From Candidatus Latescibacterota bacterium (lineage in GTDB: Bacteria; Krumholzibacteriota; Krumholzibacteriia; G020349025): DNA of 64,000 bases. A program made the translations under genes and the position numbers. Positions within the stretch are counted from its first letter, which is position 1; each line of letters opens with the position of its first letter. The notes under the pieces are model-generated. The model made no database searches and was not told the origin of the DNA. It was given only the letters and a program-made list of their open reading frames with translations. The stretch spans positions 935,046-999,045 of the forward strand of contig CP070763.1 in NCBI GenBank assembly GCA_020349025.1, given 5' to 3'. Positions 6,431-64,000 of this stretch are shown one piece after another.

Positions 6431-8155
6431 ATGGCCGAGAGCTTTGCACGCGGCGCCTTCTCCGGGACGCTGTCGCAAGATCTGGTGTTTCCCTACCCGC
6501 AGATGCACCCCGACGAGTCCGAAGTCGTGGACATGCTGCGCGATTCCATCCGCAAGTACGCGGTGGAGCACATCGACGACGAACGCATCGATCGCGATGC
6601 AGAGATCCCCCGCGAGGTTCTCGACACGCTCTCCGGCATGGGCGTGATGGGGATGATCATCCCCGAGGAGTACGGTGGCAGCGGCATGAGCGTCACGGCC
6701 TACTGCAAGGTCCTCGAGGAGATCTCCTACCACTCGGCCGCGGTCGCCGTGACCGTGGGTGCACACCAGTCGATCGGCATGAAGGCGATCATCCTGTTCG
6801 GCAACGAGGAGCAGAAGAAGAAGTTTCTGCCTGCGCTGGCAGCTGGCGAGGAGTACGCCGCCTTCGCCTTGACCGAGCCGGGGGCGGGGAGCGATGCGGG
6901 CAGCATTCAGGCAACCGCGGTCCCGACCGAGGATGGCAGCGCCTACATCGTCAACGGCACCAAGCAGTGGATCACGAACGCCGGTTTCGCACGCGTCTTC
7001 ACGATCTTCGCCAAGACGGACGTGCCCGGGGCGCGCAACGAGAACCAGAAGGTCACCGGTTTCGTGGTGACGAGCGACATGCCGGGGGTCGCGGCCGGCC
7101 CGCCGGAGAAGAAGATTGGCATCCGCGGCTCCGAGACGAACGAGGTGCATCTGGAGAACGTCCGCGTTCCGGCCGAGAACCTCCTCGGCGAGTTGGGCGG
7201 CGGTTTCAAGATTGCCATGGGTGTGCTCAACGAGGGACGACTCGGGCTCTCCACCGGATGCGTCGGTGCATCGCAGCGCCTGATCGAGCTCGCGACCGAG
7301 TTTGCACGCGAGCGCCGCCAGTTCGACCACGCCATCAGCGACTTCGAGATGATCAAGGAGAAGCTGGCCGAGATGGCCGCGCGCACCTTTGCCGTCGAGA
7401 GCGCGGCCTATCTCACCGCGGGCCTCGCCGACCGCGGGGTCAAGGACTTCAGTCTCGAGTCCGCCATCTGCAAGATCATGTCGAGCGAGGCGCTCTGGTA
7501 CGTGGTCAACGAGGCGATGCAGATCTACGGCGGTAACGGTTACATGCAGGAGTATCCGTTCGGACGCATGATGCGAGACGCACGCATCAACTCGATCTTC
7601 GAGGGCACCAACGAGATCCTGCGCGTCTTCATTGCCGGCATGGGCGTGCGCGGGCCGGGCGAAGAGCTGCAGATGGTCGCCAAGGCGCTGCGCCATCCCA
7701 CGCGCGACTTCGGCGTGCTGTCACGCTACTTCGGTCGCAAGATCGAACAGACCTTCTTGCGTGAACGCATGCGCGACATCCATCCGGAGCTGCGAGAGAC
7801 GGCGCGCTACATCGAGCGCGCGGTGCACCAGCTGCCGGGACGCGTGGAGCAGCTCCTGCGCAAGCATGGGCGTGGCTTCGTCATGCGGCAGTACCTCATG
7901 AAGCGCATCGCCGACATCGCCATCGACACCTACGGCATGGTGGCCACGACGTCGCGGACGGATGCACTGCTGAAGAGCGGCACACCCGCAGCCCAGGAGC
8001 TGGCGATGACACGCTGGTGGTGTCGCAAAGCGACGCGTCGGATTCGCCGCAACCTGCGGGGTCTCGTGGTCAACAGCGACGAGCTGACCACCGAGGTCGC
8101 CGACCGCATCCTGACCGAGACGCCGTGGTTCAACCGCGCTGCGCAGAGCTCGTAG
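6431..8155 (+). CDS. Acyl-CoA dehydrogenase
   Basis: This 574-residue flavoenzyme introduces the 2,3-double bond of acyl-CoA in fatty-acid beta-oxidation, passing electrons to ETF. Landmarks are YGGSGMS in the N-terminal helical domain, FALTEPGAGSDAG and WITNAG in the FAD/substrate-binding beta domain, IYGGNGYMQEYP, and IFEGTNEILR, whose glutamate is the catalytic base of most family members. About 150 extra residues follow the core, as in the long VLCAD/ACAD9-type enzymes. AGGAGG lies seven bases before the ATG at 6431. The 3' end overlaps the convergent PAP2 phosphatase gene by 26 bases. Confidence 0.93.
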   Translation: MAESFARGAFSGTLSQDLVFPYPQMHPDESEVVDMLRDSIRKYAVEHIDDERIDRDAEIPREVLDTLSGMGVMGMIIPEEYGGSGMSVTAYCKVLEEISYHSAAVAVTVGAHQSIGMKAIILFGNEEQKKKFLPALAAGEEYAAFALTEPGAGSDAGSIQATAVPTEDGSAYIVNGTKQWITNAGFARVFTIFAKTDVPGARNENQKVTGFVVTSDMPGVAAGPPEKKIGIRGSETNEVHLENVRVPAENLLGELGGGFKIAMGVLNEGRLGLSTGCVGASQRLIELATEFARERRQFDHAISDFEMIKEKLAEMAARTFAVESAAYLTAGLADRGVKDFSLESAICKIMSSEALWYVVNEAMQIYGGNGYMQEYPFGRMMRDARINSIFEGTNEILRVFIAGMGVRGPGEELQMVAKALRHPTRDFGVLSRYFGRKIEQTFLRERMRDIHPELRETARYIERAVHQLPGRVEQLLRKHGRGFVMRQYLMKRIADIAIDTYGMVATTSRTDALLKSGTPAAQELAMTRWWCRKATRRIRRNLRGLVVNSDELTTEVADRILTETPWFNRAAQSS

Positions 8156-61157: not shown

Positions 61158-61550
61158 ATGCCGAAACGCATCCGTTTGCACGATCGCCAGGACGGATTCA
61201 CCATCGTCGAAGCGCTGGTGGCTCTCACCATCTTCGGCATTGGCACCATCGTGCTGATGCAGCTGGCACCTCGAGCCACCCAAGTCGCGAACCACGCACG
61301 CAACATCAGTACGGCGAACGGGCTGGCGCAAGCCAAGGTTGAGGAGCTACGCGCCCTACCCAGTGGACACGCCGATCTCACGGCTGGTGTGCACGCGGAC
61401 CCGGACAACCCGATCAGCGACCACTACGAAAGGCAGTGGGAGGTGACCGACGACGACCCCATCCAGGGCATGCGTCGAGTCGAGGTCCAGGTGCGGATCA
61501 CCCAGACAGCAAGCGGCGATAGCGTGGCCACCCTGGTGACGTACTTCTGA
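61158..61550 (+). CDS. Type IV prepilin-like protein (PilV/GspI-type minor pilin)
   Basis: This 130-residue protein has a prepilin leader: basic leader peptide, cleavage site G13/F14 and the conserved Glu at +5 in GFTIVEALVALTIFGIG, followed by a hydrophobic helix and a small globular head. PilV/GspI family members begin in this way and form the pilus or pseudopilus tip. AAGGA lies nine bases upstream of the ATG. The next gene, also a prepilin by its N-terminus, follows after 15 bases, so both would be processed by the same PilD peptidase. Confidence 0.87.
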   Translation: MPKRIRLHDRQDGFTIVEALVALTIFGIGTIVLMQLAPRATQVANHARNISTANGLAQAKVEELRALPSGHADLTAGVHADPDNPISDHYERQWEVTDDDPIQGMRRVEVQVRITQTASGDSVATLVTYF

Positions 61551-61565
61551 CGAGGGCGGATCAAC

Positions 61566-64000
61566 ATGCGCAACACGCAGCACACGCGCAGAGGCTTCAC
61601 GGTCTTCGAGCTCCTGGTTTCGACGCTGGTTGCCGGCGTCGCCTTGCTCGCCACCATGCTGATTGCGTCGCAGATGAGCACCCAGATGCGCAGTGAGCGC
61701 AACCGGGTGAACGCACAGGACAACGCTCGCATCGCCATCGACGAGATCACGCGCATCCTGCGCGCGGCAGGCTCGCAGACCGACAACGCCCGTGGCCAGG
61801 GCCGCTTCGTTTTCGGCGGGCCGTGGACGGTGGCGCTGAACGCCAACCTGTTTCCGATCGACGACCCGGACGGCACCGGCGATCCGGCAGCCTTGGATCT
61901 CGCTCTGGGTGGAGCCGACGTGCCACTCGGGGGCGGAGTGACCTACACGCCGCCGCGCTCCTTCCAGACCGGCGCCGAGACGATCGTTCTCACGATCGAC
62001 TCCAGTCGTGACGGTTACGTGAGCTCCGGCGACGCGTCCGACGACGAAGAGGAGGAGTCCGACAATCCGGACGACTTCGTCGTCAAAGCGTTCGTCTATG
62101 GCAGCGATGGTACCGGCAACACCGTCCAGGAAGCCGGCCTGGCCCTGCTGCGTGGGCCATACCCCGGCGCCGACGGTAACTACACGGAGCCGATGTTCAA
62201 GTACTGGATCAACGACGACAACGACGACTCCACCCCCGCGCTTCTCCACGGCGACCTGGACGGCAACGGCGAGCTGTCGCAGGGTGAGATCGCCATGCTC
62301 GGTCCCGTGGCGCCCACGGACCTCGCTCTCATCTCGCGCATCGACGTCACCGCCACGGCCGAAAGCGAGAAGGCGGGGAACTACTACTCGGGAACCCACA
62401 GGGACGGGCGCAGCGTCCTGCGCTCGTCGGTGAGCTTCCGCAACCACATGACGACGGCCGTGCGTGTCGTCGGCACCGTCTTCAACGACGCCAACAAGAA
62501 CAGCCTACGCGACCCGGGCGAGGTGCCCTTGCGTGACGTCGTCGTGCGTTTGAGCAACGGCTCCGCGACCAAGACGGACGCGCTCGGCTTCTTCAAGTTC
62601 GTCACGCGCCCCGGAACCTACACGCTGCAGGAAATCGACAAGGTCGGTTTCGCCAGCACGACACCGAACATCGTGTCGTTGAACCCGGCGCCGGGAGATT
62701 ACGTCGAAGTCCACTTCGGCGACTACTCCACAGTGGGAAGCGGCTTCATCCACGGCAAGGTCTGGCACGACAACAACAAGAACGGCGTCCTCGAAAAGAA
62801 CGAAGAGTGGGGGATCCCGGGAATCAACGTCTTCCTCGACACGGGTGCCACGGCGCTCACCGACTCAGCGGGGAACTTCCTGTTCACCGTCAGCACCGGG
62901 AACTACACGGTCACCGAGGTCGACTCGGCCGGTTACACGTCGAGCACACCGAACGTCGTCGACGTCAACGTGGCTGCCGATGGCGACTCCGCCTACGTGC
63001 TCTTCGGCGACTACGAGCTCAAAACCTTCGGTGAGATCCACGGCTTGGTCTACTTCGACGAGAACAAGGACGGTGTGCACGACAACCTCGAGCCGGGCAT
63101 CGCCAACGTGACCGTGACGCTCGACGGCGGTGATGTCACGGTGACGGATGCGATGGGTGAGTTCCAGTTCACCGCCTCTCCCGGGACGCACGAGGTGACC
63201 GAAACGGATCCGGAGGAATACACCTCCTCGACCGTCAACACCGTCACCGTAGAGGTCTACGAGAACAAGATCAGCTACGTCGAGTTCGGCGACATCGGCA
63301 TCCAGGACGTGGCCTTCCAGGAGATCCACCTGGCCGACACCGAGCGCGCGCTGAGCATCGTGGCCACCGATCTGGGAGAAGATGCGCGCACCGATTTCGA
63401 CGTCGTCCTCGGCACTCATTACGTCGGCGGCTCGAACGATATCCTCGTGTGGCACAACCAACGTAGGAACAGCTCGACACTCAACTCGAAGATCTTCGAG
63501 CAAACGCCAAGCTACCAGCGCATCATCGATGCGGACGTGAACGCGGTGACGGCTGTCGATCTCAACAAAGACGGCATGTCCGACGTCGTCACCGGATTGG
63601 GCGCGAGCAGCAACAACATCGGCGTCTGGATCACGGACGTGAATTCGCCTGGAGACATGCCGTACGCACCCAACGCACGCTACACGGCGGCGCTCGCGAC
63701 CGGAGTGAACGACATGGTCGTCGGGGACTTCGACGGCGATCCCTACCCGGACCTGGCCGTCGGCACCACAGCGGGCTACGGGCTCGGGCGCCTCGAGGTG
63801 TGGCATGGCGGCTGGGGGAGCGCGTTTGGCCGCGAAGACGGCGACGTCTACGCGCTGATTCCGTTCTTGGGCGGAGCGAGCGGTGAGGCGTTCGGCGAAG
63901 TGGTGTCGGTCGCCAGCAGCGATTTCAACCGCGACGGCGTCGACGATCTGGTGGTGGGAACGCGCAAGAGCGACTCGATGAGTTACGTCTCGCTCCTGCT
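61566..64000 (+). CDS. Giant prepilin-type protein with SdrD B and FG-GAP repeats (3' partial)
   Basis: The frame is open from ATG 61566 to the window edge (811 codons seen). The N-terminus is a prepilin: cleavage G10/F11 and Glu at +5 in GFTVFELLVSTLVAG, as in PilW/GspJ. About 250 residues of PilW-like globular head follow. Three tandem SdrD/Cna B-type repeats come next (about residues 300-385, 393-482, 488-578), each with a VxxDxNKN-type calcium motif (FNDANKNSLRDPGE, WHDNNKNGVLEKNE, YFDENKDGVHDNLE) and an FGDY/FGDI end. Then come FG-GAP/VCBS repeats (DLNKDGMSDVVTG, DFDGDPYPDLAVG, DFNRDGVDDLVVG). These domains are typical of adhesins; their attachment to a minor pilin suggests a pilus-tip adhesin. 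Confidence 0.87.
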   Translation, partial: MRNTQHTRRGFTVFELLVSTLVAGVALLATMLIASQMSTQMRSERNRVNAQDNARIAIDEITRILRAAGSQTDNARGQGRFVFGGPWTVALNANLFPIDDPDGTGDPAALDLALGGADVPLGGGVTYTPPRSFQTGAETIVLTIDSSRDGYVSSGDASDDEEEESDNPDDFVVKAFVYGSDGTGNTVQEAGLALLRGPYPGADGNYTEPMFKYWINDDNDDSTPALLHGDLDGNGELSQGEIAMLGPVAPTDLALISRIDVTATAESEKAGNYYSGTHRDGRSVLRSSVSFRNHMTTAVRVVGTVFNDANKNSLRDPGEVPLRDVVVRLSNGSATKTDALGFFKFVTRPGTYTLQEIDKVGFASTTPNIVSLNPAPGDYVEVHFGDYSTVGSGFIHGKVWHDNNKNGVLEKNEEWGIPGINVFLDTGATALTDSAGNFLFTVSTGNYTVTEVDSAGYTSSTPNVVDVNVAADGDSAYVLFGDYELKTFGEIHGLVYFDENKDGVHDNLEPGIANVTVTLDGGDVTVTDAMGEFQFTASPGTHEVTETDPEEYTSSTVNTVTVEVYENKISYVEFGDIGIQDVAFQEIHLADTERALSIVATDLGEDARTDFDVVLGTHYVGGSNDILVWHNQRRNSSTLNSKIFEQTPSYQRIIDADVNAVTAVDLNKDGMSDVVTGLGASSNNIGVWITDVNSPGDMPYAPNARYTAALATGVNDMVVGDFDGDPYPDLAVGTTAGYGLGRLEVWHGGWGSAFGREDGDVYALIPFLGGASGEAFGEVVSVASSDFNRDGVDDLVVGTRKSDSMSYVSLL

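Follow-up and report, generated by a model that had tools for sequence, protein, structure and literature searches.

PilY1 is regarded as a core component of the tip and of priming in diderm type IVa pili. Treuner-Lange et al. reported that the minor pilins and PilY1 form a priming complex which then becomes the tip of the pilus (PMC7541494). The propeller of PilY1 has seven blades and an EF-hand-like calcium site of the form Dx(D/N)xDGxxD, and the subunits have been modelled in the order PilA-FimU-PilW-PilV-PilX-PilY1 (PMC13190605). A second scheme is that of the modular pilins, in which a functional module is grafted on a pilin. This general plan has already been described, such grafts are common and PF13620-type domains are among the frequent cargos (PMC8179133). 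In Streptococcus sanguinis the canonical minor pilins are even replaced by modular ones (PMC8179133, PMC10191384). In open-licence papers on FG-GAP or SdrD domains together with a prepilin, or on type IV pili of Krumholzibacteriota, we found no account of the protein analysed in our study.

Results

A single gene joins a pilin head to a stalk and a propeller

We analysed a stretch of 64,000 nucleotides (the window, G000:C1:935046-999045) from a single-contig genome of 3.84 Mb. The original prediction had placed at its end a frame encoding a class III prepilin leader, a PilW-like head, three SdrD B repeats and FG-GAP repeats, and had suggested that the frame continues past the window. Accordingly, the gene starts with an ATG at 61566, has no stop up to the window end and, when the whole genome was read on, reached a clean stop 574 bases beyond. 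It comprises 1002 codons (L003:412-3420), and the window itself covers 811 of the 1002 residues. The features are as follows.

61158..61550, + strand: minor prepilin (pilV/gspI-like, 130 aa) that opens the operon in this genome (N_methyl 9.3e-7; TIGR02523 PilV 4.8e-8, below the cut-off)
61566..64000, on to G000:C1:999619 (window-equivalent 64574), + strand: modular PilW-type prepilin gene, 1002 aa
61566..61595, + strand: class III prepilin leader (residues 1-10), with cleavage predicted at G10/F11 (sequence; no change of G10, F11 or E15 in 20 relatives)
61596..62444, + strand: pilin module, with an N-terminal helix ending at about residue 66 and then a beta-sheet head that extends to about residue 293 (AlphaFold2; hhalign)
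61998..62033, + strand: EF-hand-like loop 1 of the head, residues 145-156, DSSRDGYVSSGD (motif scan against shuffles)
62253..62288, + strand: EF-hand-like loop 2 of the head, residues 230-241, DLDGNGELSQGE (motif scan against shuffles)
62460..63305, + strand: stalk of three SdrD_B/Cna-B-like domains, about residues 299-390, 393-485 and 489-580 (Pfam SdrD_B 1e-27; profile match to SdrD)
63321..64000, ending at about window-equivalent 64565, + strand: FG-GAP/integrin-type propeller, residues ~586-1000 (Pfam FG-GAP; strand pattern of an ortholog)
L003:3429-4709: PilX_N protein, 426 aa, downstream of the fusion gene (Pfam)

The Pfam searches proposed in the original prediction gave SdrD_B (1e-27, three stretches), FG-GAP (1.4e-15) and FG-GAP_3 (1.1e-12), with SdrD_B and FG-GAP both exceeding the Pfam cut-offs, whereas the N_methyl match was present but sub-threshold (14.7 vs 21.2 bits). 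The leader nevertheless has Gly-1, the hydrophobic stretch and Glu+5 of a prepilin, and in the alignment G10, F11 and E15 are unchanged across 20 relatives, so that this part of the prediction held as well. AlphaFold2 modelled the head of the window protein as a 54-residue helix (13-66) followed by a beta-sheet (pLDDT 77, pTM 0.74). The likeness to PilW was found by hhalign against the canonical PilW of the phylum (98.8%, E=4.4e-17, with the alignment limited to 96 columns) and agrees with the position of the gene in the pilW slot of its operon. A Foldseek search of the head model against the PDB gave no significant match, and the full-length family profile matched the MshA pilin marginally (residues 8-104, E=8.7e-4). 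In addition to the features noted earlier, the head contains the two EF-hand-like loops listed above, compared with 0.0065 expected in shuffles. The invariant positions in the alignment are D145, S146, D149, G150 and D156 in loop 1 and D230, L237 and E241 in loop 2.

The position of the stalk was corrected to three Cna/SdrD-B units at about residues 299-580. The family profile matched the structure of S. aureus SdrD (10ps, E=1.5e-16) as well as integrin alpha-4 (1e-7). Moreover, the propeller contains four DxNxDGxxD-type loops, compared with 0.08 in shuffles. As the last part of the protein lies beyond the window, for a full-length model we used the ortholog L056, which is 40% identical to the window protein. 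This model (pLDDT 78, pTM 0.50) shows three sandwiches of the B type, together with strands that can be read as about seven four-stranded blades; because of the pTM of 0.50 the relative placement of its domains is unreliable. Foldseek of the model retrieved SdrD (10ps) and propellers including that of integrin alpha-5, with a TM-score to the target of 0.57-0.59.

GC at the third codon position stays between 0.79 and 0.92 when the gene is divided into ten windows of 100 codons, and there is thus no frame break near 62450, between the head and the B repeats, or elsewhere. A frameshift or assembly join as the source of the fusion was also ruled out because the same fusion recurs in dozens of independent genomes. 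The combination of leader, PilW-like head, three SdrD_B domains and FG-GAP propeller in one protein is therefore confirmed as real.

The fusion gene occupies the pilW slot of a minor-pilin operon

In this genome the fusion gene fills the pilW position of a pilV-pilW-pilX-fimT operon, in which the PilX_N protein and a GspH/FimT prepilin (168 aa, by Pfam) lie downstream of it. The latter is followed by a gene which, from our own reading of the sequence, we take to be cysteine-desulfurase-like. Short runs of N (masked stretches) occur downstream of the operon, near 6840 and 10150 of L003. In relatives the pilV/gspI-like prepilin also directly precedes the fusion gene, and the order in those examined is (fimT)-pilV-fusion-pilX-(fimT). 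The slot between pilV and pilX is that of the ~200 aa PilW in canonical cassettes.

Further pil genes, which the original prediction had suggested to look for, form a cluster for the type IVa pilus, located at about 3.56-3.58 Mb. There, Pfam matches at superfamily or family level identify the secretin (pilQ), PilO, PilN, PilM, PilC, PilT and PilB, together with two N_methyl prepilins, one of them PilA-like; the gene in the pilP position had no Pfam match. Seven matches to the PilT family TIGR01420 are found in the genome, two of which adjoin at about 1464-1466 kb. With the minor-pilin operon, pilB/T/C and pilM-Q all present, assembly by the type IV pilus machinery is well supported.

PilW is related to GspJ, and the neighbours of the fusion gene also give matches to the gspI/gspH families, which would fit a GspJ-like component of a type II secretion pseudopilus with an extension acting in substrate handling. 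Nevertheless, the fusion gene is followed by PilX_N and not by GspK, the only T2SSK match in the whole genome is weak and lies in a 744 aa frame elsewhere, the genome has type IVa pilus genes, and the related canonical cassettes include PilY1. We therefore regard a role in type II secretion as very improbable. The size of 1002 aa, far above that of ordinary pilins, might also suggest that the leader merely serves export and anchoring of a periplasmic or outer-face binding protein outside pili. Against this stand the invariant G10, F11 and Glu+5, the modelled pilin fold and an operon in which the gene is strictly linked to those of three further minor pilins. Besides, pili are known to incorporate other modular pilins of large size (PMC8179133), and an export-only protein is in our opinion highly improbable.

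The architecture is conserved within one phylum

We searched 80 genomes of the uncultured phylum Candidatus Krumholzibacteriota, which comprises eight families. The same domain order, whose recurrence in relatives the original prediction had named as supporting evidence, is present in six of the eight families. A search with the head only gave matches in 40 of 58 relatives, the strong ones for the most part in frames of ~1000 aa; most of the shorter frames lie close to the end of a contig. The propeller profile gave 26 matches in 25 of the 80 genomes, 20 of which share a single frame of 942-1030 aa with the head, while the remaining six come from fragmented assemblies, several of them at contig ends. 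Wherever the contig permits, the propeller is in frame with the head, and the propeller profile found no standalone propeller gene in the 80 genomes. Two halves encoded as separate genes, the arrangement that the original prediction had named as its refutation, were therefore rejected; the partial matches in G019, G025, G049, G057 and G059 belong to fragmented assemblies, several at contig ends. In one single-contig genome (G022:C1:2771214; L089:3212-4138) the head is cut at about residue 210 and no propeller was found in the genome, which is due to either a true loss, a rearrangement or an assembly error.

The distribution outside the phylum was covered by a single scan, pattern-based, over 84,980 species genomes. 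All 17 confirmed loci are labelled Krumholzibacteriota/Krumholzibacteriia, Latescibacterota, UBP1 or unclassified bacterium. The named relatives are Krumholzibacteriota/Krumholzibacteriia MAGs, some of them under the Latescibacterota or UBP1 label, and several of these records are also among our numbered genomes.

The same head carries a second cargo

In a second architecture of ~1060 aa, the same head precedes Fn3-like repeats and, at the C-terminus, an InhA-like MAM region (alignment and Pfam); these domain names are tentative since the Pfam matches lie below the cut-offs. This second type was found at L049-L053 (genomes G003, G007, G006, G026 and G043) and occupies the same fimT-pilV-X-pilX slot. 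Two fusion loci, one of each type, are present in G006, G011, G026, G051 and G055. In the head tree both types group apart from canonical PilW with a support of 100/100, and the type 2 heads fall within type 1, though weakly supported (87/78). This pattern would fit an exchange of cargo on one head scaffold. This second cargo and the exclusion of PilY1 described below go beyond the original prediction and are the more informative parts of our results.

The fusion and PilY1 nearly exclude each other

Canonical cassettes of the same phylum have the order fimT-pilV-pilW(~200 aa)-pilX(~157 aa)-pilY1(~910 aa). Two of their PilY1 proteins were scanned and have VWA and PF05567 domains, with VWA below the cut-off in one. 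Fusion cassettes, on the other hand, lack pilY1 and have a pilX of about 420-460 aa.

The enlarged pilX of the SdrD-B/FG-GAP type ends in a W[KR]E motif that is conserved in the alignment, and at two loci (L059:13010-15604 and L063:12985-15947) two tandem copies follow the fusion gene. The enlarged pilX may pair with the fusion protein.

PilY1 was surveyed in the 80 genomes with PF05567 and a sensitive profile specific to the PilY1 of the phylum. The fusion and PilY1 are each present in 34 genomes; two genomes (G009 and G010) have both and 14 have neither, several of these being incomplete and others members of f4. Counting genomes as independent, Fisher's test gave p = 3e-9, a value that overstates the evidence because the genomes are related and the exclusion follows families. 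In f4 (38 genomes) PilY1 is present in 30 and the fusion in none, whereas in f1, f2, f3, f7 and f8 the fusion occurs and PilY1 does not. Family f5 is mixed, with PilY1 only in G005 and G013, the fusion only in G018 and both in G009, and this contrast within one family is more informative than the count over 80 genomes. The comparison with PilY1 drawn in the original prediction is thus well supported, and the fusion may be a built-in replacement for the PilY1 cap.

PF05567 had no match in the fusion protein or anywhere in its genome. The propeller profile and the PilY1 of the phylum showed no detectable relation in hhalign (probability 1.1%), and a propeller transplanted from PilY1 was rejected at profile level. 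The likeness is therefore one of plan and not of detectable descent.

The fusion could also act as an adhesin of the modular pilin kind, placed at the tip or close to it, without replacing PilY1 in priming; PilY1 would then have been lost for other reasons, and the fusion would be the alternative adhesin of a second pilus type. G009 (L085, L036) and G010 (L086, L037) contain a canonical pilY1 cassette, a fusion cassette and extra pilY1 copies elsewhere, so coexistence is possible. Together with the pairs of fusion cassettes in G006, G026, G011, G051 and G055 and an exclusion that largely tracks families, this speaks for a separate adhesin. However, the states alternate inside f5, and the fusion lies in the same operon slot that elsewhere has pilY1 downstream. 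We consider an adhesin without a part in priming unlikely, though a serious alternative.

Discussion

The original prediction, a tip-located adhesin assembled by the type IV pilus machinery, is supported in part by our results. The explanation that we favour, and hold to be fairly probable, is that the protein is a minor pilin of modular type which sits where PilW does and has a built-in tip and priming adhesin in place of PilY1. The prepilin would be inserted in the inner membrane and cleaved by the prepilin peptidase, as predicted from its leader, and would pack, through its N-terminal helix, with FimT, PilV and PilX where the pilus begins. Its head, the stalk of three domains and the propeller would project outward and pass the secretin first, and the propeller, presumably stabilised by calcium, would end up as a ligand-binding cap. 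In lineages with the fusion, the PilW-borne propeller would thus take the place of the separate non-pilin PilY1. Since PilW lies below both PilV and PilX in the modelled order, the stalk is likely needed as a spacer past these two proteins.

PilY1-sized proteins evidently pass the machinery in other systems. When PilW of Myxococcus carries sfGFP at its C-terminus, the machine jams, and a bulky PilW extension is therefore not harmless in every system (PMC7541494). Jamming by such tags is the main difficulty for a cap carried by PilW.

We see an even chance that in most of the phylum outside f4 the tip works without PilY1, with a propeller built into PilW and a cargo that is exchanged, which would be a second, independent solution for capping and priming. 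The near-exclusion of PilY1 and a PilW-borne propeller in one phylum is a natural experiment on the requirements of the cap: it sets what the cap must be, a propeller with calcium loops ending the stack of minor pilins, against the parts that are free to vary. The fusion also represents a natural covalent route to displaying very large domains on a pilus.

Compared with known systems, the closest likeness is to PilB and PilC of Streptococcus sanguinis (Raynaud et al. 2021, PMC8179133), which also carry a non-pilin module on the C-terminus of a pilin, and by sequence the fusion protein belongs to the modular pilin class. Unlike these proteins, it occurs in a diderm in the pilW slot of a fimT-pilV-pilW-pilX operon, its cargo of ~700 aa consists of a three-domain stalk and an integrin-type propeller, and it nearly excludes PilY1 inside one phylum. 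With PilY1/PilC and FimU-PilV-PilW-PilX (Treuner-Lange et al. 2020, PMC7541494) it shares a large seven-bladed propeller with calcium motifs that is encoded with minor pilins, as well as a predicted role at the tip and in priming. However, PilY1 is a separate non-pilin with a C-terminal propeller and N-terminal modules such as VWA, whereas the propeller of the fusion is covalently attached to PilW, follows a prepilin leader and is of the FG-GAP type, with no detectable profile similarity to PF05567 or to the PilY1 of the phylum. The B-type stalk domains are common to the fusion and staphylococcal SdrD (10ps, 1.5e-16), and integrin alpha-4 and alpha-5 match in the propeller only; the context of the fusion, in both comparisons, is pilus assembly. 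The fusion is thus a new, phylum-wide variant of the modular pilins which appears to stand in for PilY1.
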